Assembly (NCBI RefSeq): GCF_900101395.1
Contig: NZ_FMZO01000003.1
Span: 248,001-312,000 of the forward strand
Reading direction: 5' to 3'
Length of the DNA: 64,000 nt
From: Niabella drilacis
Lineage (GTDB): Bacteria > Bacteroidota > Bacteroidia > Chitinophagales > Chitinophagaceae
Below, one piece after another: positions 23,100-38,647 of this stretch. The notes beneath the pieces are model-generated. The model did no database searches. It saw only the letters and a program-made list of their open reading frames with translations, and was not told where the DNA came from. How positions within the stretch are numbered: the first letter of the stretch is position 1; each line of letters opens with the position of its first letter. The position numbers were made by a program, and so were the translations under genes.

Positions 23100-25157
23100 T
23101 TATTCCCTGACCACCTGTATCGCTTTGCTGTACTCCTTTTTTCCATCTTTATCCACCTGTGCGATGCGTAAATATATTCTGGTATGATTTGCATCCTGCA
23201 GTGGTTCATTTTTGGAACAACTGTAAGTCAGCACCGCCACCGCTATGAATAGCCCCGGAACGCCCTTTGTTCTTCTTTTGTGCCCTTCAAATCCCAGGCA
23301 TAGCAGGAAAACCCCGGCTATGCCGCCGAACAGCACCGTGGTCATAGCATCATGAATGCTAAAGCTGTATTCCAGCGCTATGCTGCTGTTGCCGTTGGGG
23401 GTTTTGGACAGCACCGTTGCCAGTTTTTTAAACCGGGCTCCATCGGTGGACGCTTCTATGTCAAAATGATCGTTGTTGGTTTCTGTTTGGGTGGTCCAGT
23501 TTACGGTTAGCTGGTCTTTTTGCATGACTGCGCTCAGCGCCCCGAAGTGTACCGGCATTGCTGCATCAACCTGTTCATAGGTGCCCATATCAATGGCTGT
23601 ACCCATAAAGCGCGGGTTGCCGGCCAGGTCGTTGTTGCCAAAGGTTGCCGCATCATATAAGCCATTAGCTCCCCGGTCGATTACCGGGCTGTTGATGGCT
23701 AACGAATAGTCATCGGCAGCTATGTTGCCAAAGATAGTGCTGCCATCATCGGGTATGCCTGCAGGGCTCAGGTTCCCGTTGCCGGTATTGCTTTGCCCCT
23801 GGACCAGGGAATAGCTATAAGGCATTCCGGCAGCGGGTTCTGCAACAATACCGGTATTGTTGTTCCATACTATTGAATTGTGGATGCGCAAAAATGAGCC
23901 CGAACCGAACATCGACAATACCCCTCCTGCGGCCCCGGGCGAATAGTTGCCATACACGGTGCTATTGGTTATAACAATGCCTGCGCCGCTATTGGCTTCC
24001 ATGTTAACGGCACTTCCGTGAGCGGCGGTATCCTTTAAGAATAAACAATTGCTGGCAGTTGCATTTGAAAACAGGTTATACATAGCGCCCCCATCTCCTG
24101 CGGCTTTATTACGGATGAATTTTGTATGGATAATGGTGTTTTGCGATGGATAAGGGCCATATTGGCTTGCATCATAATCTGCATCAAAAATAGCGCCGCC
24201 ATCCCCGTTGCTTCTGCTGCCTTCCAGGGCTCTGTTATTTTCAAAAAGACAGCCGGAGATCCTTACTTTGGAGTGGCGGGTATAGAGGCCGCCCCCATTG
24301 CCGTCGCTGGCTGTATTGTTCATGATGATACAGTTGATATAGCTTGGCGTGCAGTTGCGGTTTTCAATAGCGCCGCCCCCTGCTGCACCAATGGTGTTTG
24401 CAAGGGTTTGGTTATTGTTAAAGGTGCAGGCTACGAATGAGGGAGCGCAGTTACGCGAGCTGGCGCCGCCTCCATATATATAAGCCGTGTTATTTTGAAA
24501 AAGACAGTTGCTTACCAGGGAGGCATTGCTGGTGGGCATATCTGCGCCTGCGGCGCCTTCCATATATATACCCCCTCCCAGGCCGGCAAAGTTGCTGGTA
24601 AGGATACAATTGTTTATGGTAACGGTATGGCTTTCGTTCTGCGAAAGATATATGCCACCGCCCCGCCCGGTAGCGCCGGTATAGCTGTCGCTTGCGTTCC
24701 CGTTTTGAATAGTAAATCCGTCAACCAGCACGGTTGAAACGCCGCCGGTAATGTTTGTAACCAGTACCACATGATAGCTGTTGTCACTGTTATTACCGGC
24801 AGTTCCGATATCCCCGTTTAAGGTTGTTATATTGGTTAATGCATTGCGCACCCCGCCGCCGGAAGGGTACCCGCCCAGTAATTGCAGGTTATTCCGGGTG
24901 ATCCTGAAAGCGGCGTTACGGCCGGTGCCGGCATTGTCGCCTGTAGGATAATAGTTGCCCTGTGCTACCTGCACCTGTGTAATGGCCGGGTTGGCATTAG
25001 CTGCATTTAATGCGCTGGCAAGGCTTTTGTAAGCATTTGTCCAGGAGCTGCCGTCATTGGCGCCTGTTGCCGTTGCATCCACATACAATGCCTGGGCATT
25101 CAGGAGGGATGCGGGCAGGACCAGGAGCAGGAGGAAAAGCAGGTATTGTTTTTTCAT
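23100..25157 (-). CDS. Right-handed beta-helix surface protein with split C-terminal module
   Basis: A 685-residue protein: signal peptide (ends LLNAQA), then YVDATATGANDGSSWTNAY, the usual opening of polymorphic-outer-membrane/pectate-lyase-like helices. Ca. 100-530 are beta-helix rungs with repeated N-x-A...GGGIY and CLFxNN patterns. From residue 534 a T9SS-style beta-sandwich begins (PVHFGALSA, LTVNWTTQTETNNDHFDIE), but after EYSF it is broken by a membrane segment (604-623), a basic stretch (HKRR), a second hydrophobic segment and Cys647, then resumes as LRIAQVDKDGKKEYSKAI. The same layout ends the LRR protein at 36800-38647. Function of the passenger unknown; probably surface adhesion or glycan binding. 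Confidence 0.8.
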   Translation of the reverse strand: MKKQYLLFLLLLVLPASLLNAQALYVDATATGANDGSSWTNAYKSLASALNAANANPAITQVQVAQGNYYPTGDNAGTGRNAAFRITRNNLQLLGGYPSGGGVRNALTNITTLNGDIGTAGNNSDNSYHVVLVTNITGGVSTVLVDGFTIQNGNASDSYTGATGRGGGIYLSQNESHTVTINNCILTSNFAGLGGGIYMEGAAGADMPTSNASLVSNCLFQNNTAYIYGGGASSRNCAPSFVACTFNNNQTLANTIGAAGGGAIENRNCTPSYINCIIMNNTASDGNGGGLYTRHSKVRISGCLFENNRALEGSRSNGDGGAIFDADYDASQYGPYPSQNTIIHTKFIRNKAAGDGGAMYNLFSNATASNCLFLKDTAAHGSAVNMEANSGAGIVITNSTVYGNYSPGAAGGVLSMFGSGSFLRIHNSIVWNNNTGIVAEPAAGMPYSYSLVQGQSNTGNGNLSPAGIPDDGSTIFGNIAADDYSLAINSPVIDRGANGLYDAATFGNNDLAGNPRFMGTAIDMGTYEQVDAAMPVHFGALSAVMQKDQLTVNWTTQTETNNDHFDIEASTDGARFKKLATVLSKTPNGNSSIALEYSFSIHDAMTTVLFGGIAGVFLLCLGFEGHKRRTKGVPGLFIAVAVLTYSCSKNEPLQDANHTRIYLRIAQVDKDGKKEYSKAIQVVRE

Positions 25158-25372
25158 TTATTGGAGGTTTTGGACGGGTGAATAACTATTGTTTGTTTGT
25201 GGTTTGGATGATTAGGGTTTAAAATGGCCGGGTTGTCTATATGGCAGTAGTAAAGGTGCGTTGCGGAAAACGTTCACCCAAAATCCGGGAAGGACAAAAC
25301 CCGGACACCGGGCGGACAAAGCACGGACGCTGATTGCGGGGAATTTGAAGAATGTAGGCTCCTGGAAGTCAT

Positions 25373-25406
25373 AAAAAAGCCGGAAGCTTGCGCTGCCGGC
25401 TTTTTT
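25373..25406. terminator. Bidirectional terminator
   Basis: AAAAAAGCCGG (25373-25383) pairs perfectly with CCGGCTTTTTT (25396-25406) around a 12-base loop. It would terminate the minus-strand unit containing the TPR-LuxR gene and the 35-residue peptide, separating it from the beta-helix gene. Confidence 0.8.
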
Positions 25407-25442
25407 CAAAGCATTGGTTGTTGATTGCGACCCCCATGTTGT

Positions 25443-25550
25443 TTAAAGTGGGTGGATCCTGCGCTCAAAGTAAATCCATACTGCCAGTATCAGCAGGAGC
25501 GCTACCAGAAGAATAAGCAGGGTAACATATACATGTTTTCCGCGTTTCAT
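25443..25550 (-). CDS. 35-residue single-pass membrane peptide
   Basis: A short frame, MKRGKHVYV... to ...ERRIHPL, with basic residues at both ends and one 18-20 residue hydrophobic helix in between. It starts at ATG 25550 and is followed 36 bases later by a clean terminator, as a real last gene would be. It begins 88 bases after the stop of the TPR-LuxR regulator on the same strand, so it may be co-transcribed. No family recognised; small size leaves some doubt that it is translated. Confidence 0.5.
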   Translation of the reverse strand: MKRGKHVYVTLLILLVALLLILAVWIYFERRIHPL

Positions 25551-25638
25551 ATAAAAATAAAAGTGCAATTAAATGTAGGATAATTCTGTTAATCCGGAGA
25601 TGATTGGCCGCGGACAAAATGCGGACAAGTTCTTTTGA

Positions 25639-27384
25639 TCAGGCATAGGTATCAAGTACGGCGATCTCTTCTTCCATTTGCTGGTCCGTAGCCAGGTTTA
25701 AAGCGGTGCGCAGGCGGCGTTTGCTGCGGGCTACGCTGTCCTTACTGATGCCCAGGGTATTGGCGATCTGGTAATTGGTCAGTTGCAGGAACATCAGCGC
25801 GGCAAGCCGCTCCATGGCAGGGGTAAGATTTTCCATGCGCCGCCGCAGGTTACTGAAGAATGCCGGGTAGGCTTTCGAGAACTGATCCCGGAATTTTTCC
25901 CAATCTTCTTCTGTTAGCAGGGAATAGGAGCGCAATTGCTCGGGGTTGGCGGTTTCAGGGGATTTGTTGCTCAATTGCTCCTGTAATGATCTGATAAGAT
26001 CATTTTTCTCAATAATATTGCGGGTAAAGGCTGCTATTTTTTCCCGGGCTTCCTTTACATCGCGCCGGGCATTGGCATGCCTTAGCTCCATCTCCCGCAG
26101 ACGATACTGTTCCTTTACCCTTTTTTTGTTATACAACAGGAGCGCGATGATGGTCAGCAGCACGATGCCTGCCAGGATAGCATTGCGGATACTTTTTTCC
26201 CTGTTGGCAACCGACTGGGCCAGTATCAGCGAATGCTGCAGGTTATCGAAGGCGATCTGGGCCTTTATTACGGAAAAAGCGCTGTTCTTATTCGCCTCGC
26301 GCTGTATCTCACGATACCGGTTCCACATGTCATAGTAATAAAAGGCGCTGTCGGTAGGTCCGGTTTGCCGGTATATGGTGCTCATCCGGTCGGCAGCTTC
26401 TATGAGTTCCGGGTATATATTTTTGGGCAGGGCAATCTTCCATGCTTCCTGCGCCGCTGCCAGCGCAGATGCATATTGCTTTTGCCGGAAGTAAAACCGT
26501 GCAAAGGCATTATGGGCCATGGCAATGTTAAGGGGATCCTGTTCTTTCCTGCTGTTTTGCAGGTATGCTGTCAGTAAGGGCAGTGCCTCGGCATAACGCC
26601 CTTCTGCAGTATAGGTTTGCCCGATGTTCCCATCGGCGATGCCCCGCCAGAGTGTTTGCATGTAGGCCGAGCTTTCGGATCTTAATGCCTGCAGGATCTG
26701 TTGATAATACCAGCGGGCGCTATCGTAGCGGTTCAGTTGTTTATAGGCGGCCCCAAGGAGGTCGCACTGGAAAATATATACCCGGGGGTCCCGGTGAACG
26801 GTATCGATATCCCATAATCTCAGGCATTCCCTGCCATAGGTGATGGCTCTTACATATTCACCCTGGCTGTACAGGGATGCACAAACACCATAAAAGCGGT
26901 TCTGTGTATAAGGAAAATACCGGAAGCCGATCCTGCGTTGAATCTCCAGTGCTTTTAAGTTATAAAGCAGATGGGTTTCTGAGGAAGGAGGTATATCGGC
27001 CCGGATGCTGTATAACTCGGCATTGAGCTGGTCATCCCGCAGCGGGTAAGCCATTTTGATAGCTTCGCCGATGGCGGGGTAGTATTTTTGGGCATATCCG
27101 TATTCTCTTGCTGCCATGATCTCGAACATGAGCAGGCGTACCTGCAGCCTTCTGTCCGGGTGTTTCTTTATATAGCTCCGCAGCAGATCGATATGACCAA
27201 GGTATTTCTTCCGGTACAGCGGGTCATCTTTGTGGATCAGCAGGGAATCGAAAAATACCTGCGAGCGATAGCTCTGTGTTTTATCAGAAATGTTCCATGC
27301 TGCGATATAAGGCGCTATTCCCGTGTCCTGGGATAAAGAGGCTGTACTGAATAGAAGGCACCAAAAGAAAAGTATCAATTTCAC
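25639..27384 (-). CDS. Membrane-anchored TPR / LuxR-type HTH regulator (copy 1)
   Basis: A 581-residue protein. Order: signal peptide (ends SLSQ), an all-helical region with TPR-like repeats (about 150-350: ARWYYQQIL, GNIGQTYTAEGRYAEALPLL, ARFYFRQKQYASALAAAQ), a membrane helix (about 395-412), a coiled coil rich in Arg/Glu, and a C-terminal HTH with NYQIANTLGISKDSVARSK (about 535-555). This is the architecture of Bacteroidota one-component sensors in which periplasmic TPRs signal to a cytoplasmic DNA-binding domain. It is clearly paralogous to the gene at 28284-30014. Target unknown. Confidence 0.8.
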   Translation of the reverse strand: MKLILFFWCLLFSTASLSQDTGIAPYIAAWNISDKTQSYRSQVFFDSLLIHKDDPLYRKKYLGHIDLLRSYIKKHPDRRLQVRLLMFEIMAAREYGYAQKYYPAIGEAIKMAYPLRDDQLNAELYSIRADIPPSSETHLLYNLKALEIQRRIGFRYFPYTQNRFYGVCASLYSQGEYVRAITYGRECLRLWDIDTVHRDPRVYIFQCDLLGAAYKQLNRYDSARWYYQQILQALRSESSAYMQTLWRGIADGNIGQTYTAEGRYAEALPLLTAYLQNSRKEQDPLNIAMAHNAFARFYFRQKQYASALAAAQEAWKIALPKNIYPELIEAADRMSTIYRQTGPTDSAFYYYDMWNRYREIQREANKNSAFSVIKAQIAFDNLQHSLILAQSVANREKSIRNAILAGIVLLTIIALLLYNKKRVKEQYRLREMELRHANARRDVKEAREKIAAFTRNIIEKNDLIRSLQEQLSNKSPETANPEQLRSYSLLTEEDWEKFRDQFSKAYPAFFSNLRRRMENLTPAMERLAALMFLQLTNYQIANTLGISKDSVARSKRRLRTALNLATDQQMEEEIAVLDTYA

Positions 27385-27606
27385 CGCAAAAAAATTGGTG
27401 CTGTAAATATAAAGGATTTGAAAGAGCTTCGGGAGGGTGCGTTTGGGGAGGATTTTCCGGAAGGGTATATTAAGCCCTTTCCGGGTAATGGAATGTCTGA
27501 TATTGAACCGGCAGAAGTAAAAACAACACCGGGACTATTCCATGAGAAAAAGTTACAGCGACATCCGGCCAGGTAATATGGAGCGGTGGTGAAGCCATCC
27601 TGCTGA

Positions 27607-27635
27607 CCGGCGATCATGGCTGTTCAGATCGCCGG
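27607..27635. repeat. GC-rich stem-loop
   Basis: CCGGCGATC (27607-27615) and GATCGCCGG (27627-27635) form a nine-bp perfect stem, 20 bases after the stop of the small secreted protein gene (minus strand). It lacks a T-tract, so it may protect the 3' end rather than terminate. Confidence 0.4.
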
Positions 27636-27654
27636 CAGGATACCTGTTGCAGCC

Positions 27655-28101
27655 CTATATGTCGCCTCGTTTGAATTTATTTAAGAAGGTAATGTTACCA
27701 TTGGCATCAACGTTTACTTTATACGTGTTTTTTGCATCATTTACCACGATGATGTAATTGGTCGTCTGGGAGGTCATTACTTCTGTTACGCCAAAGATTT
27801 CTTTTTTCCCAAGCTTCTTTTTTATACCAAATAACAAATTAGGGGGCAGGTTGGCCTCTCCGTAATAACGGATGGTTTGTAAAAGGCTGCCGTTTGTTTT
27901 GTCTAACATCGCCCGGTACAGGATATGATCCTTTTTGAAGACGGCCGTAATATAATCGGGCGATTCTATCCAGGAAACCGGTCCCGTATCTTTAAAGATG
28001 ACGCTGAAGGTGCTCAGCACTTTTTCACTGACAGGGGCAGGTTTGTTGGCAAAAACATGAATGCTGAATGCCGTTGCCACAATGATGATAAGGAGTTTCA
28101 T
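27655..28101 (-). CDS. Small secreted protein, PepSY-like
   Basis: A 148-residue protein with a signal peptide (ends VFANKP). The mature part alternates strands and helices: FSVIFKDTGPVSWIESPDYITAVFKKDHILYRAMLDK followed by a late YKVNVDANGNI. This resembles the PepSY-like/DUF2874 small periplasmic proteins common in Chitinophagaceae, but the match is by eye only. It lies between two paralogous TPR-LuxR regulators on the same strand and might be a ligand or target of one of them (inference). Confidence 0.6.
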   Translation of the reverse strand: MKLLIIIVATAFSIHVFANKPAPVSEKVLSTFSVIFKDTGPVSWIESPDYITAVFKKDHILYRAMLDKTNGSLLQTIRYYGEANLPPNLLFGIKKKLGKKEIFGVTEVMTSQTTNYIIVVNDAKNTYKVNVDANGNITFLNKFKRGDI

Positions 28102-28283
28102 TTTATTTTTTTTTAAGCGTATAGAGAATCAGTTAATTTCTTTACAGAAACAGGCAGACGGGGAATATCTGAAGCAGCGCAATGGTAATAGCAGCTTATT
28201 TGTTCTGTTCCCTAAAGGTGCTTTGAAAAGAGAGGGATTTACAAAAAAACAGCCAGACAAAAACCGGACAATAGTATAACTGG

Positions 28284-30014
28284 TTATAAATCAAATAAAT
28301 ATTCTTCCAGTGTTGTTTCATGTGCCAGGCAAAGAAGGCTGCGCAGGCGGTGTTTGCCACGGGTTACGCTGTCTTTGCTGATACCCAGGGTATTGGCGAT
28401 CTGATAATTATTGAGCCCTAAAAAGATAAGGGCGGCCAGCCGTTCCATAGCCGGGGTGATATTGGGCGCATTCTGGTGCATCCGTAAGAAAAAGTACGGA
28501 AAGGCTTTGGTGAATTCTTCCCGGAATTTTTCCCATTCGGTTTCGGTGATGATGGCGTTGCTGAGCAGTTGATTTTGTAATTCGGCCGGTGGTATTTGCC
28601 ATTTATTTTGGGTTTCCAGGCTTTGGATGAGGTTGTTTTTTTCAACAATAAGCCGGGTAAAAAACCGGATGCGCTCCCTTGCCTGGTCTATTTCTGCCTG
28701 GGCATTCTGGTAGTCGGCTGCTATTTTTTCCAGTTTGGCCCGGTCTTTTATTCTTTTGCGGTTGTACAGCAGTCCCATAATAACGAGGAGCAGGCTGATG
28801 CTTGTTAAAATAAGCTGCTGCTTTTGCCGCTGTTGAAGAGCTACCGATTGTGAAATGGCCAGCGAGTGCTGCAGTTTGTCAAATGCCAGCTGTGCCTGTA
28901 TTACGGAAAATGCGCCCTTTTTATTCTGCTCCCGGAGCGCATCTTTATACGAGTGGTAAAGATCATTATAATAAAAGGCTTCACTGATATTATTGCGACG
29001 GCGATGAATAAGGCTGATGTATTGCGCCGCATCCATTAATTGCGGGAGCAGGGTATATCTGGAAGCCGTATCATAGGCCTGACTGGCTGCCGACAATGCC
29101 CTGCCGTACTGGCCTTGCCGCAGGTAATAGTCTGCAAAAGCGTTCTGGGCCATAACGATGTTCAAACGATCGTTCAGTTGAGAAGCCGCCTGCAGGTGAT
29201 TCGTCAGCAGTGGCAGCGCCAGGGTATATTTCCCCTCCCGTGTATAGGTCTGCCCGATGTTCCCTTTGGCAATGCCACTCCATAAGGTACTGTCCAGGTT
29301 GGTCATTTTAGGACGGGGCATCTGGAGGATCCTCTTATAATAGGCCCTTGCACTGTCGAACCGGTTCAGGTTCTTAAACGAGGCTCCAAGGATATCACAT
29401 TGAAAAACATAGTGGTCCGGAAGCAGCAGGCTTCCCGCAGCATGATAAATGGCCATGAATTGCCTGCCATAGTCAATGGCTTTCCTGTAGTCGCCCAGGT
29501 CGTAAAGGCAACGGCTTACTTCATAATAAGGAACATACCCATAGGGAAAATACCGGATACCAATTTTTTTCTGCATTTCGATACCCTTAAGGTTATAGAA
29601 CAGCCGGGTATCCGGGGAAAGGGGATGACTTCCCCGCAGCAGATAGAGCTCTGCGTTTAGCTGGTCGTCTTTTAACGGGTAAGCCAGGTTAATGGCTTCA
29701 TCAAAAAAATCACGCCTGAAACTGGAATCGAGCCTTATATGAAATTCATAGATCATTAAGCGTACTTTTAGCCGTGGGTCAGGATGATTTTGAACATACT
29801 GCTTTAACAGGATTATTTCCCTGTAATAGGACTGTTTTTGCCCGGGCGTGATCGCATGTTCAAAAAAATCATCAACAAGCTCCCTGCATTTCCTGGTTTG
29901 GCTGTGATCCGTGGTTTCCCAGGCCTCCAGAATGAACTTGATCCTCCTGGTTTGGGCCTCCGCTGTAAAAACTAACGGAATCAGGAACAGGACAAAAAGG
30001 AGCAGCTTCTTCAA
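28284..30014 (-). CDS. Membrane-anchored TPR / LuxR-type HTH regulator (copy 2)
   Basis: A 576-residue paralogue of the gene at 25639-27384, with the same layout: signal peptide (ends AEAQT), TPR-like repeats (ARAYYKRIL, GNIGQTYTREGKYTLALPLL, ADYYLRQGQYGRALSAASQ), a membrane helix (about 390-410), a coiled coil, and a C-terminal HTH (NYQIANTLGISKDSVTRGK). The start is a TTG at 30014: the signal peptide begins immediately there and no suitable in-frame ATG was found. Conservation is highest in the TPR linker GNIGQTYT and the HTH, suggesting similar DNA sites but different ligands. Confidence 0.8.
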   Translation of the reverse strand: MKKLLLFVLFLIPLVFTAEAQTRRIKFILEAWETTDHSQTRKCRELVDDFFEHAITPGQKQSYYREIILLKQYVQNHPDPRLKVRLMIYEFHIRLDSSFRRDFFDEAINLAYPLKDDQLNAELYLLRGSHPLSPDTRLFYNLKGIEMQKKIGIRYFPYGYVPYYEVSRCLYDLGDYRKAIDYGRQFMAIYHAAGSLLLPDHYVFQCDILGASFKNLNRFDSARAYYKRILQMPRPKMTNLDSTLWSGIAKGNIGQTYTREGKYTLALPLLTNHLQAASQLNDRLNIVMAQNAFADYYLRQGQYGRALSAASQAYDTASRYTLLPQLMDAAQYISLIHRRRNNISEAFYYNDLYHSYKDALREQNKKGAFSVIQAQLAFDKLQHSLAISQSVALQQRQKQQLILTSISLLLVIMGLLYNRKRIKDRAKLEKIAADYQNAQAEIDQARERIRFFTRLIVEKNNLIQSLETQNKWQIPPAELQNQLLSNAIITETEWEKFREEFTKAFPYFFLRMHQNAPNITPAMERLAALIFLGLNNYQIANTLGISKDSVTRGKHRLRSLLCLAHETTLEEYLFDL

Positions 30015-30253
30015 GACACAGTTGATTTGGTTATTCTTTCTTAAAAGTAAAAAAAATAATTATATGTATGTGGTTCCGGTTATACGAACCTTGCCGGGGG
30101 CCGGCATTATAATGTTTGGGAAGCAATCGGCTTATACCGCAGGAGAACCTTCCGGCTGGTTTGTTGCAGTTCCGCAACCCCCGTTGTAAAGCGTGTTTTA
30201 CCCGGTGCTGCGTTTCTGGTGCGGCGGAATAAAGGGGAAGCTGTATTGAGTGG

Positions 30254-30628
30254 CTATTGTTCAATGATCACCACGGCTGCGGCAATGGTCTTTAAGTGGC
30301 TGAGGGAAAGCTGTACTTTTTTCAGATCCAGGTGCTTCAGGGTTTCGGCAGTTTGTCCTTTCAGGGAGAGTACCGGTTTTCCCTGTTCGTCTCCCAGGAC
30401 CTGGATCTCGTTAAATGCAGTACCATCTGCCCACCCGGTACCCAGCGCTTTCAAGAACGCTTCTTTAGCAGCAAAACGGGCGGCGTAATGTTCGTATTTA
30501 TGTGCTTTGGGTTCACAGTAGCCGATCTCTTCCTGCGAAAACACCAGCTCACGGAATCCCTGCTCCTTTTGGATCTTCTCTGCTACACGTTCGGTTTCTA
30601 TTACATCAAGGCCAAGTCCGGTGATCAT
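30254..30628 (-). CDS. acpS: Holo-[acyl-carrier-protein] synthase
   Basis: A 124-residue AcpS of normal length. The Mg-binding N-terminal motif IGLDVIE appears here as GLGLDVIETERV (D8), and the CoA/metal helix as ARFAAKEAFLKALGTG (about 70-85). It transfers 4'-phosphopantetheine to ACP. Downstream on the same strand are yidD and rnpA's neighbours, but a 110-base gap separates it from yidD. Confidence 0.95.
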   Translation of the reverse strand: MITGLGLDVIETERVAEKIQKEQGFRELVFSQEEIGYCEPKAHKYEHYAARFAAKEAFLKALGTGWADGTAFNEIQVLGDEQGKPVLSLKGQTAETLKHLDLKKVQLSLSHLKTIAAAVVIIEQ

Positions 30629-30737
30629 TGTTTCAGGTTTGAAGTGAACTGTTTTAAGTGAGCATTTTCAGGGGGAGGCGTGAGTAGTTTCAGGTGTTAC
30701 AACTTTAAATATGAAGTCCTGAAGGGGGCCTGCGGTC

Positions 30738-30968
30738 CTATGGCACCGGGTCGTATCCGCTTCCTCCCCAGGGATGGCAGCGGGAAATACGTTTTAGCGA
30801 AAGCCAGAACCCTTTAAAAGGTCCGTATTTTTTAAAAGCTTCCAGGGCATAATGACTGCAGGTAGGAGTATACCGGCATTTGGGGCCCATCCAGGGTGAA
30901 ATGACCAGCTGGTAAAACCGTATCAGCAGGATAAACGGCAGACTTAATAGCTTAAGGATCCATCGCAT
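30738..30968 (-). CDS. yidD: Membrane protein insertion efficiency factor YidD
   Basis: A 76-residue protein with the YidD signature: an amphipathic N-terminal hydrophobic helix, then [31 protein letters not shown] and [15 protein letters not shown]. The three conserved Cys are present. It assists YidC-dependent membrane protein insertion. Its start overlaps the end of rnpA by 17 bases, the usual translational coupling. Confidence 0.96.
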
Positions 30969-31353
30969 GCAATTTATTTTCCAGTTTTTGTAAGGCCTTG
31001 CCTACCTGTTTGTAGATATCGTTATACAAAGGAAGCGCTTTGCCCGTGAATAATAAGAACAAAGAAAGGTGTGTTTGGGTTTGACCGGCGCTCATTTTTA
31101 CGGGTTGCTGCTGCAGCCGGTAGGCCTCCCGCAGCAGGCGTTTGATGCGGTTCCGGTCCGCGGCCTTCTTAAAATACCGGCTGCTTGTGCCCACGCCGCA
31201 TTGGATATCCGGTTTGTCTGCCGCTTCTGCCAGGTAGAGCAGCTTTATGGTACCCGAATGGATGCGGCTTCCGGAACTGAAAACCTCCTGTAGCTTCTTA
31301 CGGCTTTTCAGCCGCTGCTGCCGGGGAAAAGTATTTGTTTTTGCCTGTTGCAC
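30952..31353 (-). CDS. rnpA: Ribonuclease P protein component
   Basis: A 133-residue RnpA. The RNR motif is present as [16 protein letters not shown] (about 70-85), preceded by the strand [12 protein letters not shown]. It binds the RNA subunit and matures tRNA 5' ends. The start is GTG at 31353. A perfect TATTTTTG box lies 13 bases upstream, giving rnpA its own promoter; this fits the fact that rpmH, its usual upstream partner, is here separated by a glycosidase gene. Confidence 0.95.
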
Positions 31354-31366
31354 GTTGAATAAAATG

Positions 31367-31374
31367 CAAAAATA
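31367..31374 (-). promoter_or_regulatory. -7 box for rnpA-yidD
   Basis: Minus-strand TATTTTTG, a perfect TAnnTTTG, lies 13 bases before the rnpA GTG and 43 bases after the stop of the upstream GH95 gene. No clear -33 element. Confidence 0.4.
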
Positions 31375-31416
31375 CAGGGATCGGGCGCTTTATGGCAAAC
31401 CTGTTATCAAACGGGG

Positions 31417-33681
31417 CTATTCCCCGCTTTTTATAACGATACGGCCACCTGGCCCGGCGTTTAATAAAACCTGTCCATTCTCAAGGCGGGTTAACCGGGC
31501 ATTTTGTGCAGAGAGGACCACGCTTTTTTTGAAAGGGAGTTTAAATGGCGCCTGTCCGCCTTTTTCTGCAACAATGCGGATCTCTTTTACGGCGCCGTTT
31601 TCGATGCTGCCGCTTACAAGGAAAGCACCAGCCGCCCGGAGGTTGGCAAAGCGTACTTTCTTCCAGCCGGAGGGAACGGATGGGAATACCGCTATGTATC
31701 CCTGCCGGCTTTGCAGCAACAGCTCCTGCACTCCCTGCGCAAAGGCAAAGTTTCCTTCCAGTGTGAAAGGGCGGTAAGTAAACCCGGAATACTGACCGCC
31801 TTTCTGATCGCCGTTCAGATGAAAGCTGTTGGGGGAGCAGAAATTGGAGGCAAAGATTTGTAACTGCTGCAGGGCGCTGTCTGCTTTTTCCGCTCTTGCA
31901 TATAAAGAAGCCATCCAGCTGAATGAGTAACCGCACCAGGCCCGGGTACCGTTTGCTTCGATGTTCTTCAGCGATTTTTCAATAATGATCCTGTCAGCCG
32001 CACGATCCGCATCCAGCAATGCCAGGGGATAGATGGCCATATAAGGAGAATGATGCCGGTGCGAGGATCCCATATTTTCCCCGGGAGCCACTGTAAGGCC
32101 GGTTTCGTTCACATCATATCCGGGGAGTTCGGAAAGCCTTTTTTGCCAGCGTCCGGCTTCTGCCGGCTGGTTCATTGCGGTTGCAGCTTCAGCGGCAGCC
32201 GCAAACAGGAATTTGGCCAGCGACAGGTCGTAGTTGGTCCAGTTAAGAAACCATGCATTGATGGCATTATCATGGTATTCGGGGCTGGAGCTCAGGGGTA
32301 ATTTCCGGATGCCATTTTGCAGCCGGGTTATTTGCTCAAGGTAAACAGCCGCATCATGTATATAGGGATAGGCCCGGGTTTTTAAAAACAGGCTATCCAT
32401 GGAATATTTCCATTGCCAGTAAAAGTGCTGGGCGCACCAGGCGCCTACGGTTGGGGAAAGGGAATACTGGATCCAGCCACCCATCGGATCCCCGTTGAGG
32501 GTTACAACCCCGGGAACATTTAAGCCGCTTACACCAAAATACTGACGGGTGTAATGCAGGCTCTTTGCCCGGATCTTCCAGAGCCAGTCGGTAAAGGTGG
32601 CGGCTTCTGTAAGGTGGTTTCCCGTGTAGGCCGGCCAGTAGCTGAGCTGTGTGTTAAGGTCGTTGTGAAAATCTCCTTTCCAGGGGGGCAGGCTGCCATT
32701 ATCGGCGGTCCAAATAGCCTGCAAAGTGATGGCGGGAGCGCCCTTGCGGCTGGTAGCCCCCAATTTATAGAGTTCGAGATAATATTGCTTTTCAACAGCG
32801 GCATCCGGGAGCTGTACCATAGACTGGTTCCAGAAACGGGCCCACCACAGGATATGGCTATCCCGGTTTGCTTTTGCTGTACCTGGCTCGGGCAGCACGG
32901 CCGGCTGATCGTTGGTAATGGTCCATGTTCCGCTCATACGGCTCCTGCCATTGTATTTCCAGCGGACCAATACTTCAAAATAATGATCCTGGTAAGTGGG
33001 CTGATGATAGTGGATGCTATTGCGCTGGGTGCTTACAGTACCCCGGGCATAACCAAGCTTTTCCAGCCCTTCACCGGCATGGCTGTTATCATTTTCTACG
33101 GCAGATCTGCCGGAATTGTAATTGTGAATTTCAAGATCGGGGATCAGCGGGTGGGTAATAGAAGCCGGCAGGTTCTCAAATTCAAAATACCCGGTTGGAC
33201 TGGTTGCATGAATATATGACCGGAATATAACACCGGAACGGAAGGTTACCGTATTTATTGCAGTAGTAATATCCAGTTTGTTCGATACGACCGGCCCCAG
33301 CTCGTCCAGGTTAAACTGCAGCGCCGCAGCAGGTAATTTTGTAGGATAGGGCAGGTTGTCGTAGGGGTGGTCGCCCAGTTGCTGCACGGGTTTATAGTCT
33401 TTTTTCAGTACCTGCTGCTCTACCCACTTAAAGTTGAATTTTGAGAGGTCGAGCGCCTTTCTCTCATCCCACAGATCCGCCCTGTCCAATGATAGCCGGA
33501 GTTGGTTGTTTTTTTGCCATACCAGGGCACCCAGCATCCCGTTGCCCAGGGGTATCGCTTCATCCCAGCGGGAAGCCAGTTGTGTAAAGAGGAGATTATG
33601 TTTTCCGGCTGGCTGTGCGCATGCAAATGAAACCAGCAGGGCGCAAAAGAGGCATGTGAACAATCGTTTAATAACTACCAT
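31417..33681 (-). CDS. Glycoside hydrolase family 95-like protein
   Basis: A 754-residue secreted enzyme: signal peptide (ends FACAQP), then the GH95 opening ASRWDEAIPLGNGMLGALVW, an (alpha/alpha)6 barrel with KGDFHNDLNTQLSYWPAY (about 330-347, where family members have W...NLNLQMNYWP), and a C-terminal beta-domain. GH95 contains alpha-L-fucosidases and alpha-L-galactosidases; which linkage is cut cannot be told here. It sits between rpmH and rnpA on their strand. A terminator after rpmH and a separate box before rnpA imply an independent unit. TAAGTTCG (seven of eight) three bases before the ATG is a possible promoter. Confidence 0.8.
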   Translation of the reverse strand: MVVIKRLFTCLFCALLVSFACAQPAGKHNLLFTQLASRWDEAIPLGNGMLGALVWQKNNQLRLSLDRADLWDERKALDLSKFNFKWVEQQVLKKDYKPVQQLGDHPYDNLPYPTKLPAAALQFNLDELGPVVSNKLDITTAINTVTFRSGVIFRSYIHATSPTGYFEFENLPASITHPLIPDLEIHNYNSGRSAVENDNSHAGEGLEKLGYARGTVSTQRNSIHYHQPTYQDHYFEVLVRWKYNGRSRMSGTWTITNDQPAVLPEPGTAKANRDSHILWWARFWNQSMVQLPDAAVEKQYYLELYKLGATSRKGAPAITLQAIWTADNGSLPPWKGDFHNDLNTQLSYWPAYTGNHLTEAATFTDWLWKIRAKSLHYTRQYFGVSGLNVPGVVTLNGDPMGGWIQYSLSPTVGAWCAQHFYWQWKYSMDSLFLKTRAYPYIHDAAVYLEQITRLQNGIRKLPLSSSPEYHDNAINAWFLNWTNYDLSLAKFLFAAAAEAATAMNQPAEAGRWQKRLSELPGYDVNETGLTVAPGENMGSSHRHHSPYMAIYPLALLDADRAADRIIIEKSLKNIEANGTRAWCGYSFSWMASLYARAEKADSALQQLQIFASNFCSPNSFHLNGDQKGGQYSGFTYRPFTLEGNFAFAQGVQELLLQSRQGYIAVFPSVPSGWKKVRFANLRAAGAFLVSGSIENGAVKEIRIVAEKGGQAPFKLPFKKSVVLSAQNARLTRLENGQVLLNAGPGGRIVIKSGE

Positions 33682-33756
33682 ACCCGAACTTACACTTTTT
33701 TTTCAGACCGGTATGGGCAAACAACCGGGCAAACGATTGCATCGGATAATTTGTCC

Positions 33757-33783
33757 AAAAAAATAGCCCCGTTACCGGGGCTA
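33757..33783 (-). terminator. Terminator after rpmH
   Basis: Read on the minus strand, TAGCCCCG - GTAA - CGGGGCTA is an eight-bp perfect stem followed by seven Ts. It lies 31 bases after the rpmH stop and separates rpmH from the glycosidase gene downstream. Confidence 0.9.
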
Positions 33784-33814
33784 CCAAATCTTTTGAAAAA
33801 ATAAACAGGATTGT

Positions 33815-33970
33815 TTACTTCAATTTCCTTTCATCGGAAACCGTTAATTTTTTACGTCCTTTTGCACGGCGGCTTGCCAGTACTTTACGGCCGTTAGCGG
33901 TTTGCATACGTTTGCGAAAACCATGTACGGTTTTACGACGACGACGATGGGGTTGAAATGTCCGTTTCAT
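33815..33970 (-). CDS. rpmH: 50S ribosomal protein L34
   Basis: A 51-residue very basic protein, [20 protein letters not shown] followed by [20 protein letters not shown], the near-universal L34 sequence. Start ATG at 33968-33970, stop at 33815-33817. It has a canonical promoter about 100 bases upstream and its own terminator. In most bacteria rpmH is directly followed by rnpA; here a GH95 gene intervenes. Confidence 0.98.
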
Positions 33971-34073
33971 AATATCTTAATTTTTCACTATTTTTTGAAT
34001 GCGCATGGGAGAACATGCTGGTTTTCAAGTTTCAACCACAGGACACCACTCCCGTTGGTTTGTGAAAGGACGG

Positions 34074-34106
34074 CAAAGGTAGGGAAAAACCCGGAAAATG
34101 GCACAA
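34074..34106 (-). promoter_or_regulatory. rpmH promoter
   Basis: On the minus strand TTG (34106-34104), a 22-base spacer and TACCTTTG (34081-34074, perfect) form a Bacteroidota-type promoter. The predicted start near 34070 gives a leader of about 100 bases before the rpmH ATG. Confidence 0.65.
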
Positions 34107-34112
34107 CCGGTT

Positions 34113-34976
34113 TTAAATGTATTTTTTGCCTGACAGGTAGTCGTGACTGAATTTCAGACTTTCGAACATATTGCCCTTACTGGTGTCCTGTTCTACAAAC
34201 CATTTCTTCAGACCTGCCGTTTTTCTTGCCGCAAAGATCCTTTCAAAATCGATTGTGCCGTGCCCTACCTCAGTAATGTCCCCGGTTCCGGCTTCCATAT
34301 CTTTTACGTGCCAAAGCGGGAAGCGGCCGGGATATTTCTTAAAATATGCCACGGGGTCGTGCCCCGCCTTGCTGATCCAGTAAAGATCCAGCTCCATATT
34401 GACCAGTTTGGGATTCGTATTGGTAATTAAGTGGTCGTATACCAATGTATTGTTATACTTCTCAAATTCAAAATCGTGGTTATGGTAGGCAAACCCGATT
34501 TCCGCCGCCGCGGTTTTTTCGCCGGATTTATTAAGCAGGTCCGGAAGCGCTGCATACACCTCGCTGGTCCTTTCATTGGGAAATAAAAAGGCGCAGGCCA
34601 TATATCGTGCTCCGATGAAATGCAGGTCCTCGACGGCCTTTTCCCATCCTTCTTTTAATGTGCCTTTTGATTTTGCCTGGAACCCGGTAAGGTGATGCGA
34701 ACTCACCACTTTTACTCCGGTATTTTTTAAAATAGATCTGAATTCCGCCGGGGTTTTACCAAAGAAGCTTCCATCGTAGCCGTAAATCTCCAGTTCATTA
34801 TAGCCGATACCGACCAGCTTTTCCAATGTGCCTTCCAGATCCTTTGCCACGGCATCTCTTACCGAGAAGAGCTGCATGGCCAGGTATTTTTTCTTTGTGC
34901 CGGCGGCAAACAGGTTGGGGGTGTATAATCCCGCGGCACCTGCCGCAATTGTTTTCAGGAACAGGCTTCTTTTCAT
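34113..34976 (-). CDS. Secreted sugar phosphate isomerase/epimerase-like protein
   Basis: A TIM-barrel protein of 287 residues from ATG 34976; a longer frame exists upstream (to 35039) but only the ATG gives an immediate export signal, MKRSLFLKTIAAGAAGLYTP, resembling a Tat signal. The xylose-isomerase-like barrel shows QLFSVRDAV, YNELEIYGYDG, VVSSHHL, FAYHNHDFEF, MELDLYWISKAGHDP and LWHVKDM, the usual His/Glu/Asp metal ligands. Such exported members in Bacteroidota act on sugars of unknown identity. It is expressed on the strand of rpmH and lies just upstream of its promoter. Confidence 0.85.
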   Translation of the reverse strand: MKRSLFLKTIAAGAAGLYTPNLFAAGTKKKYLAMQLFSVRDAVAKDLEGTLEKLVGIGYNELEIYGYDGSFFGKTPAEFRSILKNTGVKVVSSHHLTGFQAKSKGTLKEGWEKAVEDLHFIGARYMACAFLFPNERTSEVYAALPDLLNKSGEKTAAAEIGFAYHNHDFEFEKYNNTLVYDHLITNTNPKLVNMELDLYWISKAGHDPVAYFKKYPGRFPLWHVKDMEAGTGDITEVGHGTIDFERIFAARKTAGLKKWFVEQDTSKGNMFESLKFSHDYLSGKKYI

Positions 34977-35200
34977 TGTATAACCGGTTTTAATATCAAT
35001 AATTGATCCTGAAGGTAGCTGATATTGGGCAAATTTCAATCATCCTGTAACCTGGCTCCGTTTGATAAAAAAGAACGGCGACATACCTGCTGCGGAAAAA
35101 TACAGGTATGGCCTGTGGGATGCTTCATCCGGATATTTATTTCACGCATTTATGAAAAACCAATAATTTTACGGGTGTGGATTTTACCCAAAACTAATCA

Positions 35201-36331
35201 ATGTTCGCATTAAATATTTGTCTTGCCCTTAATCTGATTATTTTATTTGTTGCTTTCTTTTTCAGGAAAAACAACGCCCTTCCTAATAAAATACTGGCAC
35301 TTATTCTATTAGACACCGCCATTTCGTTTTTGGGCAACGCCAGCATTACGGGTGGAATATTTGAACAATTCCCGTACTTCTTTTTTCTTTCGTGGTGTAC
35401 CAATGCTTATTTTGGTCCGCTCGTTTTTGCTTATACCTGTTTGTTTACGGGTGCGGCCATCAATTTGAAACACCCGATATGGCTTGTTGCTTTTCTGCTT
35501 TGTATATTCGGGTGGTCGTTTCCCGTCACCTACCTGATGCTGCCGGTACCGGCGCGACCCGGGTTTGCAGCCTCCCTGCTGCAGGAGCCGTTGCCGTGGC
35601 AAATGACGGTCATTAATATCGTTGGCATGTTGCTGATCCTTGCAAGTGTGGCCGCTTCAGCTATAAAAATAGCCCGGTACAAAAGGCGGCTGTTTACAAC
35701 CATATCTAACCTCGAAAAGACCAAATTGTCTTTTATTACGAAATTTGTTGCCCTTGGGGGCATCCTTACGCTGATTACATCTGTTTTGTACCTGGTTCTG
35801 CCGCAATACCTGGTAGAATACCTGTACCTGCCCTGTTTGATTACGCTCATTTATTTTTTTATTCTGTATTACAGTTTCCGGCATCACGCCATTTTTACCA
35901 CGGAAACCTATGAGCAGTTCCTGGAAGAAACCCGCCCGGTTGTGGAAGAGTACGCCGGACCTGCTGCCAAACAGGCGGCTGTCCCTCAAAATGAACTGGA
36001 GATCTTAGCAGCGCGTATTGAAGACTTTCTGATGCAGTCCGGTACCTATACCGATCCGGATTTTACCATCAACATGCTTGCAGACAACATGCGTGTGCCG
36101 GTGGAAAAAATTTCGGCGGCGATCAATAAAGTAATGAACAAAAACTTTTTTGAGCTGGTTAATGAAAAACGGGTTGATAAGGCAAAGCTGCTTTTGGATA
36201 ATAAAATAAACCAGATCACCATCGAGGCTATTGCCTATGAATCCGGCTTTAACAGCCGGGCCTCGTTTTACCGGGCATTTAAAAAATATACGGCGCTAAC
36301 ACCTTCCGAATATTTGAGCCAACTATCCTGA
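35201..36331 (+). CDS. Membrane-bound AraC family regulator
   Basis: A 376-residue protein. The first 230 residues hold about seven hydrophobic helices; the C-terminal 100 residues are an AraC-type double HTH, with FTINMLADNMRVPVEKISAAINKV (first HTH) and ITIEAIAYESGFNSRASFYRAFKKYTALTPSEY (second HTH, the conserved family signature). This 7TM-AraC architecture is typical of Bacteroidota sensors. Tandem 21-bp direct repeats 270 bases downstream, before the LRR gene, have the spacing AraC proteins favour and are candidate targets. Confidence 0.9.
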   Translation: MFALNICLALNLIILFVAFFFRKNNALPNKILALILLDTAISFLGNASITGGIFEQFPYFFFLSWCTNAYFGPLVFAYTCLFTGAAINLKHPIWLVAFLLCIFGWSFPVTYLMLPVPARPGFAASLLQEPLPWQMTVINIVGMLLILASVAASAIKIARYKRRLFTTISNLEKTKLSFITKFVALGGILTLITSVLYLVLPQYLVEYLYLPCLITLIYFFILYYSFRHHAIFTTETYEQFLEETRPVVEEYAGPAAKQAAVPQNELEILAARIEDFLMQSGTYTDPDFTINMLADNMRVPVEKISAAINKVMNKNFFELVNEKRVDKAKLLLDNKINQITIEAIAYESGFNSRASFYRAFKKYTALTPSEYLSQLS

Positions 36332-36601
36332 GCCGCTGTCTGAAAATAGATTTTTCCTCATACAGCCTGCTGACCCGCCGGCTGGCAGATTTGCGGGAGT
36401 TTTTTCCGCATCCGCCTGTTTTGACCCGGCGGGCAGGGGCGTTGCTTATCAGTTCTTTTCTGTGTTTGATCTGCATCGTTCCCTGCTGAACAGTCATTCG
36501 GACAAGCCGAGGGAATTAGCATCAGTACTATTTTATGTGAACACAAATGTATACAGCGCCCGGGACCGGCCGTTTTAAGGGAGGTTTATTGCCGGAAACG
36601 G

Positions 36602-36638
36602 CTTGTTGCGACAAATTTTCGCCTTGTTGCGACAAATT
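36602..36638. promoter_or_regulatory. Tandem 21-bp-spaced direct repeats (candidate AraC-type operator)
   Basis: CTTGTTGCGACAAATT occurs exactly at 36602-36617 and again at 36623-36638, a period of 21 bp or two helix turns. Each copy contains the small palindrome TTGT-TGCG-ACAA. They lie in the 468-base gap between the AraC regulator and the LRR surface-protein gene; the rest of that gap shows no gene or terminator. Confidence 0.55.
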
Positions 36639-36799
36639 CCGGGGTGGGCGGACATCGTACCAGGCTCAATCCGGATAGTTTTGCCGGCGCCGGGTTTTCG
36701 GTAAAACCAGGCAAAATTTCAGCCTGAATGATCATTCATTGATATACCACTCTTGTATAACTGTGCACATTTTTAAATACGGTACTAAATAAAAAAAAC

Positions 36800-38647
36800 G
36801 TGAATCACAAACGCATTGCTTTTATCGTTTATTTTTTTACGGCCTGCCATTTTGCCAATGCAGCAAACGAGCCTTTTATTACGATATGGCAAACCCCCAA
36901 TATGGGAATACGGATAGACGCCATCGGTGAATTTACCTATACCTGGAAAGACCTCAACAATTTATCACATACCGGAAATGGAAGCGGTGGTTCCACTTCC
37001 GCAAGCGTATCTGCTACAAATATATCATTTGGAGCAGCCGGAAAATACCAGCTTGAAATTACCCCCGTGGCAGGCGCGCACCCGTTTTCCCATATAGAAA
37101 TGAATACGGGCTACCCCGATGCGCACTATCTTACACAAATTACCCAATGGGGCGACATAGCCTGGAGCAGTATGGCCTATGCGTTTATGGATGCACAAAA
37201 CCTCACCATTACCGCTGCCAATGACGTGCCCCGGCTGGGCGCAGTAACCAATATGGCTTATATGTTCAACGCTTGCGAGAGCCTTACCACCATTCCAAAT
37301 ATTGGAAATTGGGACGTAAGTCACGTAACAGATATGAGTTATATGTTTGGCGGTTGCAGTGTACTCACCAATATCCCCGGTATTGGAAACTGGAATGTGG
37401 GAAGTGTAAAAGACCTGGGCGGAATGTTTGCCGTTGCTTACCTGTTCAATGAAGACATTAGCGGTTGGGATGTAGGCCTGGTGGAAAACATGAGCCATAT
37501 GTTCGAGTTTGCATCGGGTTTTAACCAGCCCATCGGCAAATGGAAAGGTAAAACCGGTAAGGTACAAAATACCTGGGCTATGTTTTCAGGTGCCGCAGCT
37601 TTTAACCAGGACCTCAACGAATGGGATATGAGCAGGGTAACGGATATGCAGCAAATGTTTTTAGAGGCAACGGCTTTTAACGGAACTATTAGCAACTGGA
37701 ATGTCAGCAAGGTAGAATATATGTCGCTCATGTTTGCGGGTGCTGCATCTTTTAACGGGGATATAAGCGGTTGGGGTGTGGGCAGTGTGGTGGATATGTC
37801 AGAAATGTTTAGCGGGGCTATAGCTTTTAATGCCAACATTGGCGGCTGGGATGTAAGTAAGGTAGCCAACACCAGCTATATGTTTTATAAGGCCGCGGCT
37901 TTTAATCAAAACCTCGGGGAATGGAAGCTGAACGCATTAAAGGTATCCATATTCAGCTCTTCTGCTGAAGGAATGTTATCATATAGCGGCCTGGATTGTA
38001 GCAACTATAGTAAAGCCCTGATCGGATGGGCAAAAAACTCCGCTGATTTGCTCCGGAATATAAAACTGGGTGCAGACGGTCTATCTTATGGTACGGAGGG
38101 GAAGGCTGCCAGGATTGTGCTCACTGCAACGAATAAATGGACCATAACGGGCGATAATTATGATGAGCAATGCAGCATTACTGTACTACCGGTAAACTTT
38201 GGAGCGGTTTCGGCTATTTTTAAAAATAACAGGTTATACATTCATTGGGTCACCCTATCCGAAACCAATAGCAGCTACTTTGATATAGAAGTTTCCCGGG
38301 ATGGCAAAACGTTTACGAAGCTGGAAACGGTAAGCAGCAAGGCGGTGAACGGCATGTCGCAAAACCACCTTAATTATGAATATACTGCAATGATGCCGCA
38401 GGCTGCAACTGTAATAGGGTTGATGGCTTTTGGCTTGTTATTATCTGTTTCCGGAAGAAAAAGAAAAAGGGTATATGTAGCAATACTGGTGCTCGTTTCA
38501 GGATTTACAGCGCTGAGCTCCTGCCAAAAAAACGGGGATGAGCTTGATGCGGCCGGGCAAGGGGGCCAACTGTTTATCCGGATCAAACAGGTAGATAAAG
38601 ACGGGGATTTTCAGTACAGCAAAGTGATAAAGACGATAGTGGAATAA
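36800..38647 (+). CDS. BspA-like LRR (DUF285) surface protein with split C-terminal module
   Basis: A 615-residue protein from GTG 36800, where the signal peptide starts at once (ends NAAN). Residues 120-390 are BspA-type repeats: FN..IG.WDVS.V..M..MF..A.AFN, about nine copies. After about 460 a T9SS-style beta-sandwich begins (LPVNFGAVSA, LYIHWVTLSETNSSYFDIE) and is interrupted by a membrane segment (534-552), RKRKR, a second hydrophobic segment and lipobox-like LSSC (C575), then QKNGDEL, and resumes as IRIKQVDKDGDFQYSKVI. BspA repeats mediate binding in other bacteria; the ligand here is unknown. The C-terminal module matches that of the gene at 23100-25157. Confidence 0.85.
   Translation: MNHKRIAFIVYFFTACHFANAANEPFITIWQTPNMGIRIDAIGEFTYTWKDLNNLSHTGNGSGGSTSASVSATNISFGAAGKYQLEITPVAGAHPFSHIEMNTGYPDAHYLTQITQWGDIAWSSMAYAFMDAQNLTITAANDVPRLGAVTNMAYMFNACESLTTIPNIGNWDVSHVTDMSYMFGGCSVLTNIPGIGNWNVGSVKDLGGMFAVAYLFNEDISGWDVGLVENMSHMFEFASGFNQPIGKWKGKTGKVQNTWAMFSGAAAFNQDLNEWDMSRVTDMQQMFLEATAFNGTISNWNVSKVEYMSLMFAGAASFNGDISGWGVGSVVDMSEMFSGAIAFNANIGGWDVSKVANTSYMFYKAAAFNQNLGEWKLNALKVSIFSSSAEGMLSYSGLDCSNYSKALIGWAKNSADLLRNIKLGADGLSYGTEGKAARIVLTATNKWTITGDNYDEQCSITVLPVNFGAVSAIFKNNRLYIHWVTLSETNSSYFDIEVSRDGKTFTKLETVSSKAVNGMSQNHLNYEYTAMMPQAATVIGLMAFGLLLSVSGRKRKRVYVAILVLVSGFTALSSCQKNGDELDAAGQGGQLFIRIKQVDKDGDFQYSKVIKTIVE

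Follow-up and report, generated by a model that had tools for sequence, protein, structure and literature searches.

How could a protein be fastened to its cell by a C-terminal sandwich domain that is interrupted by a membrane hairpin? The question is raised by a 64,000-nucleotide stretch of Niabella drilacis DNA (contig NZ_FMZO01000003.1, positions 248,001 to 312,000), called the window below. Two proteins of the window, carriers 1 and 2, end in the same module, in which a predicted β-sandwich is split by two transmembrane segments (TM1 and TM2) with a basic loop between them and a lipobox-like cysteine behind them. We propose, with a probability of about 0.6, that the module is a two-part lipid anchor: it would contain an internal type II signal peptide, and the lipopeptide cut from it would complete the sandwich of the passenger, as the preceding part of the protein is called.

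The carriers and their module

The passenger parts of the two carriers match different families, namely a β-helix with choice-of-anchor Q in carrier 1 and DUF285/PARCEL repeats in carrier 2. Their modules are 42% identical across 153/154 residues, and in a scan of both proteins no Pfam or NCBIfam model reached its cut-off on the shared module. A common C-terminal module on two otherwise unrelated proteins is what an earlier interpretation of the same DNA, called the sequence-only reading here, had claimed. The elements it had named (C647, C575, HKRR, RKRKR, both hydrophobic segments and the RIxQVDKDG...YSK end) all lie where it had placed them. It had also labeled carrier 2 a leucine-rich-repeat (LRR) protein; this label has to be replaced, as the protein scores as DUF285 (PF03382, E 1.8e-120) and no leucine-rich-repeat family is listed for it. 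The parts of the two carriers are as follows.

23100..25157, minus strand: carrier 1 (685 residues), β-helix / choice-of-anchor Q protein with the module at its C-terminus (Pfam and NCBIfam matches)
25092..25157, minus strand: carrier 1, N-terminal signal peptide resembling a signal peptidase I (SPI) substrate, no lipobox (by eye and with a simple script)
23355..23561, minus strand: carrier 1, first half of the sandwich, residues 533-601 (alignments)
23289..23345, minus strand: carrier 1, TM1, residues 605-623 (hydropathy across 89 copies)
23265..23285, minus strand: carrier 1, basic loop GHKRRTK, residues 625-631 (charge and hydropathy comparison of copies)
23217..23264, minus strand: carrier 1, TM2 and lipobox-like end up to C647, residues 632-647 (copy comparison)
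23103..23180, minus strand: carrier 1, last strands, residues 660-685 (alignment of copies, profile comparison)
36800..38647, plus strand: carrier 2 (615 residues), DUF285 / PARCEL-repeat protein with the module at its C-terminus (Pfam and NCBIfam matches)
36803..36868, plus strand: carrier 2, N-terminal signal-like segment, GTG start, SPI-like (read by eye)
38183..38386, plus strand: carrier 2, first half of the sandwich, residues 462-529 (alignments)
38402..38455, plus strand: carrier 2, TM1, residues 535-552 (hydropathy across copies)
38456..38470, plus strand: carrier 2, basic loop RKRKR, residues 553-557 (charge and hydropathy comparison of copies)
38471..38524, plus strand: carrier 2, TM2 and lipobox-like end up to C575, residues 558-575 (copy comparison)
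38567..38644, plus strand: carrier 2, last strands, residues 590-615 (alignment of copies, profile comparison)

Probable origin from a secretion-associated sandwich

Homologues that have no hairpin can be aligned with the module in 103 columns (hhalign, probability 99.9, E 4e-32). In this alignment the hairpin is a single insertion, seen as one gap at the D..P..G turn, and the rest of the sandwich aligns end to end with homologues that carry a tail of the type IX secretion system (T9SS). The sequence-only reading had described just such a T9SS-associated sandwich with a membrane hairpin at this turn. When eight of the hairpin-less homologues were scanned, six had a T9SS type A tail above the cut-off, one fell below it (20.1 of 23 bits) and one had none. 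Judged by its sequence, the module thus appears to derive from the domain that stands before T9SS type A tails in relatives, a sandwich into one turn of which TM1, the basic loop, TM2 and the cysteine have been inserted.

Conservation of the putative signal inside the module

The anatomy of the module was followed in 90 copies, 32 from the N. drilacis genome and 58 from named loci, after exclusion of frameshifted, truncated and hairpin-less rows. The cysteine is present in all 90, at a distance of 38-44 residues from the C-terminus. It is preceded by Ser, Gly or Ala in 87 copies, and the second residue after it is Lys in 83 and Arg in 5 (88/90 together). Among the N-terminal lipoprotein candidates of the same loci (49, with 43 distinct sites), Lys occupies this second position at 21 of the 43 sites; the residue preceding their cysteine is set by the search rule and therefore provides no test. 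The distance from the last basic residue to the cysteine is 13-21 residues in the module and 12-18 in these candidates. That the second half of the module is lipoprotein-like, as the sequence-only reading had proposed, is borne out by the cysteine, the small residue before it and the Lys or Arg behind it across the copies.

The loop between the hydrophobic segments has a net charge of +1 to +6 in 89 of 89 copies (a partial copy being omitted), and the 12 residues preceding TM1 have a charge of -4 to +1. According to the positive-inside rule, a loop of this charge would be cytoplasmic, which would put the cysteine on the outer side of the membrane, like that of a lipoprotein signal. The module therefore has the basic region, the hydrophobic region and the small residue with cysteine of a type II signal peptide, located internally in the form described so far, which we call fused, and N-terminally in the two-gene form described below. 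As about 60 residues lie beyond the basic loop, the signal is not at the very C-terminus. The genome searches were directed at the module, LspA and T9SS. A single match to LspA (PF01252) was found in the N. drilacis genome, and no extra signal peptidase II was found there.

In an alignment of 60 copies the cysteine is invariant. Directly before TM1 there is no conserved motif in these copies except the sandwich Tyr; the most conserved parts, namely the cysteine, the Lys and the last strands, all follow TM1. TM1 itself has a conserved Gly in 48 of 59 copies, followed at a distance of four by a small residue; the two, at positions 84 and 88 of the window copy, are possibly a packing or protease site.

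Two-gene versions

In five genomes the two sides of the module are found in two adjacent genes. Three of these genomes (G008, G108 and G231) belong to one genus and two (G076 and G152) to another. The passenger gene ends directly after the strand preceding the position of the hairpin, and after a gap of 26 (G008), 3 (G108), 27 (G231), 100 (G076) or 64 (G152) nucleotides a small gene of 51-64 residues follows. This gene consists only of an ATG, a signal peptide, the cysteine, a linker and the last strands, and its product looks like an ordinary lipoprotein. The passengers have no membrane segment after the sandwich half, and no remnant of TM1 is found between the two genes. In profile comparisons, each half aligns with its side of the module (E 4e-13 and 2e-16). 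A Pfam scan of four of the passengers gave a match only in G108 (G8).

A possible variant is found in genome G004, chosen together with G1086 (see below) among the matches listed for a last-strand profile since the match extends back to the signal. Here a SASA/Laminin_G_3 protein ends after its apparent first strand and is overlapped by a 106-residue lipoprotein-like protein, which reads as the last strands followed by the middle strands; the profile confirms the middle part only. Among the 394 genomes of the family, this lipoprotein was found at full length only in G004 itself, and in short pieces in seven others. This arrangement points to a variant in which the sandwich is divided elsewhere.

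Going by the predicted products of these genes, the last strands are able to exist as a lipoprotein-like chain of their own, next to a passenger that is devoid of them, which lends support to the sequence-only reading, in which the last strand completes the sandwich of a protein that is perhaps cut. The simplest function of the small gene would be to complete the sandwich and to lend it a lipid.

Spread of the module and absence of sprA

A profile made of the two window modules was searched against the N. drilacis genome (6,099,002 bases) and found 35 places at E<=1. The module is spanned by 31 of them (E 2e-11 to 2e-87); two are significant C-terminal pieces, one with an internal stop, and two are not significant. 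With its length of about 155 residues, the module is read in open frames as 31 full copies and one partial copy. In 30 of these 31 carriers, scanned for families, 24 Pfam families were matched, each in at most five members, and choice_anch_Q was matched in 11 of the 30. The passengers include β-helix, DUF285, RCC1, NHL and metallopeptidase proteins. The module is therefore carried by unrelated passengers, as had been suspected; it is no chance resemblance and is not confined to two recent paralogs.

At E<=1e-5, 15 of 17 Niabella genomes contain between 2 and 51 matches each to the hairpin half; G237 and G254 contain no match. Almost all named loci that have the full module come from Niabella, a genus of the Chitinophagaceae. 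A search of the 394 family genomes, limited to 13 scored candidates in each, found the hairpin half in 19: nine are Niabella, three have a single fused module (G242, G650 and G742), five have the C-terminal half only, and two (G634 and G700) were rejected as ordinary sandwiches. One fused module each was also found in G1086, which belongs to another family, and in a Chitinophagaceae assembly (L120). The flanking parts are more widespread. The last-strand profile has matches in 188 of 395 genomes of the class at E<=1e-4, and among those listed outside N. drilacis nearly all comprise the last strands only, in long frames, like ordinary sandwiches. Profile A2 matched 186 of 244 family genomes, and outside Niabella most of its listed matches do not extend beyond the first half of the sandwich.

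In Niabella, exported proteins commonly end in the fused form, and this genus is without sprA. The gene was found above the cut-off in none of the 17 Niabella genomes vs 40 of 42 other relatives, and the two relatives without it are 57% and 83% complete. Short weak SprA matches of less than 20 bits occur in seven of the 17, and many genomes that possess sprA show the same match beside the real gene. In the N. drilacis genome, a single T9SS tail is just above the cut-off (23.9 vs 23 bits). The loss of T9SS from Niabella is thus deduced from SprA and, in one genome, from the tails, these being the components to which the searches were limited. Two further assemblies with module carriers and without sprA, L121 and L146, are probably Niabella too, as L146 reads like G189 of the genus.

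In a tree of 51 rows and 110 retained columns, the fused modules of Niabella and three from outside the genus form one clade (99/96). The fourth outside module, that of G242 (L178:5884-6354), falls among T9SS-tailed rows and possibly has a separate origin; the AU test does not reject one clade for all fused modules (p-AU 0.248). The five split rows are set apart from the others (97/97). There is room for more than one origin of the module, with the split forms apart from the fused clade; since the tree has long branches and is based on no more than 110 columns, separate origins are suggested rather than shown.

Carriers also occur in tandem. Two neighbors on contig C25 of N. drilacis (L057:11864-14839 and L057:14952-17771) are nearly identical in their hairpins and last strands and differ in their first halves and passengers, which looks like an exchange of the anchor part by gene conversion. 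Five copies stand in a row in L058 (contig C39 of the same genome, 1-20000), where the passengers differ, and seven full-length copies in L102. Several copies in L126-L131 (N. defluvii and N. hibiscisoli) are split into two frames, perhaps owing to assembly errors.

Proposed mechanism of anchoring

By combining what is observed, namely the anatomy of the module, its invariance, its amplification, the absence of sprA and the two-gene versions, it is possible to propose how a carrier would be anchored. The passenger would be exported by Sec until TM1 stops the transfer and returns the chain to the cytoplasm. Next, the basic loop, TM2 and the [S/G/A]-Cys would serve as a type II (lipoprotein) signal peptide in the interior of the protein. 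Lgt would lipidate the cysteine and LspA would cut before it, creating a lipopeptide of 38-44 residues that contains the last two strands. These strands would remain in the sandwich of the passenger, which would thus be hung non-covalently on a lipid anchor, and the lipoprotein pathway may carry this anchor to the outer membrane or to the surface. TM1 would be either removed or tolerated, a second cut being likely.

The two other genera seemingly make the same complex from two adjacent genes. The fused gene would need TM1 only to bring the chain back for the internal signal, and the cut by LspA would restore the two-chain product. Strand donation is plausible because the T9SS domain of RgpB, an immunoglobulin-like sandwich, is described as swapping its last strand in crystals (PMC4804311). 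We would give even odds to the wider claim that this is a new anchoring principle, in which a separate lipopeptide of about 40 residues, made either from a mini-lipoprotein gene or from an LspA-cut fused precursor, donates the missing strands, and the fused form of which has become a main display tail of Niabella after the loss of T9SS.

Several points weigh against this proposal. Lipidation, cleavage, strand pairing, location, the fate of TM1 and the takeover from T9SS are all inferred. A cut by LspA alone would leave TM1 and TM2 on the passenger, and the model therefore needs either a second cut or a product that stays in the inner membrane. The sandwich fold is itself a prediction, since a sequence search for relatives in the PDB gave nothing significant (best E 0.25). 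The N-termini of the carriers are SPI-like in 59 of 90 copies; 30 have no signal call, many of them truncated frames or without an ATG, and one is flagged for a lipobox and looks SPI-like by eye. In Capnocytophaga a lipoprotein export signal C-X-K-(D/E)2-X is described (PMC5080379). The C-x-K start of the module resembles this signal; one of the 90 copies has its acidic pair, and 47 have a single acidic residue in the two positions that follow. Finally, sprA is present in all 11 tested carriers outside Niabella, and in G237 and G254 neither the module nor sprA was found, so that the loss of T9SS and the presence of the module are not strictly tied to each other.

The alternative that survives best, an unlikely one in our judgment, is that the hairpin, lipidated or not, stays uncut. 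The carrier would then remain a periplasm-facing protein of the inner membrane, held there by TM1 and TM2, and its sandwich would be closed within the one chain. The anatomy needs no cut, cleavage being supposed from it, and TM1 is kept as well as TM2, together with its conserved Gly and the small residue four places on. However, a lipobox-like end would be superfluous in a plain anchor, yet the cysteine and the C-x-K/R are nearly invariant, and the two-gene form has separate chains and a passenger without a membrane segment after its sandwich half.

It is less probable still that TM1 and the basic loop are a signal for a sortase-like or intramembrane protease, which would release or transfer the passenger, TM2, the cysteine and the last strands being a by-product or having a separate role. 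TM1 followed by a basic loop does resemble the tripartite tails, and there are weak matches to LPXTG_anchor (12.2 of 15.9 bits) and, in three of 60 copies, to NF033207 'midcut-by-XrtH' (best E 0.047), the name of which hints at another cut in the middle of a protein. All these scores, however, are below the curated cut-offs, the best-conserved parts follow TM1, and the two-gene form dispenses with TM1 yet keeps the cysteine, the Lys and the last strands. The sequence-only reading had regarded the first half of the hairpin as PEP-CTERM-like; with PEP-CTERM and LPXTG scores below the curated cut-offs and only the sandwich Tyr conserved before TM1, this part of its interpretation is not supported, and the whole is partly supported.

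The two-gene versions would say nothing about function if they were broken fused copies. Broken copies do exist: some are truncated or have stops (C33:88487 and C40:238653 of N. drilacis), frameshifted ones occur among L126-L131, and the copy on contig C8 of G189 has one TAA. Nevertheless, all five species have retained the ATG, the signal peptide and the break point, the passengers of the two genera are dissimilar (BLASTP E 11), and no remnant of TM1 was seen between the genes. Furthermore, the small gene is under purifying selection in one pair of species (G008 vs G231, dN 0.05 and dS 1.40; in the second pair, G152 vs G076, dN is 0.25 with dS saturated), which makes this explanation very improbable. 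The least credible idea is that the carriers belong to the T9SS cargo and that their hairpin is an aberrant or degenerate T9SS ending. It has in its favor the homology of the sandwich to that preceding T9SS tails; against it, the tail model TIGR04183 has no match at E<=1 in either window protein, one marginal tail was found in the genome, and the genus is without sprA (0/17).

Comparison with known systems

The catalogued domain that most nearly resembles the hairpin is NF058595, invert_tail, a 'lipo-invert putative C-terminal anchoring domain'. Its alignments, all sub-threshold, extend in many copies from TM1 to just past the cysteine; at E<=1 the model detects 28 of 60 copies of the module (best 2.3e-4). 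The match to carrier 2 is lost when the cysteine or the basic patch is altered in the probe, and another module copy never matched. The alignments and these effects suggest that NF058595 shares the order TM, basic, TM, Cys. The same loose search finds matches in 14 of 14 control genomes, so that part of the score is plain hydrophobicity. The cut-off of 37 bits is reached neither by the best match in the N. drilacis genome (21.4 bits) nor by the tail of carrier 2 (16.9 bits), and membership of the module in this family was rejected. At E<=1e-6 the model is silent in 345 Bacteroidota genomes and in the controls too, so the zero count does not establish absence. The module had been expected not to be a catalogued domain with a settled function. 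This holds as far as the function is concerned, that of NF058595 being called putative, and is qualified by the existence of this sub-threshold look-alike. Membership in the PEP-CTERM and LPXTG families was likewise rejected, PEP_CTERM scoring 7.7 of 16 bits with a shortened probe only.

The module is like the N-terminal Lgt/LspA lipoproteins of Bacteroidota in having a basic region, a hydrophobic region, [S/G/A]-Cys and a Lys second after the cysteine, and unlike them in that the signal of the fused form is internal, behind TM1 and 38-44 residues before the end. With T9SS type A cargo (TIGR04183) it shares a homologous sandwich; in contrast to such cargo it has no tail, ends a few residues past the last strand and is found mostly in a genus without sprA. 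The MYXO-CTERM signal of the myxosortase system, as described (PMC11980579), is a C-terminal surface-anchoring signal composed of an invariant and presumably lipidated cysteine, a membrane segment and a basic part in the cytoplasm. Its order is Cys, TM, basic, and the tail beyond the cysteine is removed, whereas the module has the order TM, basic, TM, Cys, followed by a conserved pair of strands. The C-terminal domain of RgpB can exchange its last strand between chains, for which its authors cite strand complementation in pili; as described (PMC4804311), it involves neither a lipid anchor nor a dedicated strand-bearing lipoprotein, and it is cited as a possible parallel to the sandwich of the module. 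Literature searches found no account of the module or of the absence of T9SS in Niabella.

If the proposal is true, the known repertoire of devices that fasten proteins to cells would grow by a bipartite, strand-donating lipid anchor, and signal peptidase II would act deep inside a protein. It suggests that a Bacteroidota genus without T9SS may keep the sandwich of its cargo and change the fastening. The two-gene versions make strand donation directly testable with two small fragments.

Neighboring genes in the window

The G+C content of the window is 48.5%. Carrier 2 is directly followed by a papain-family (C1) peptidase with DUF4384 (38714-40297, plus strand). Carrier 1 is adjoined by two similar TPR proteins (25639-27384 and 28284-30014, both minus strand), the C-terminal part of which is regulator-like.

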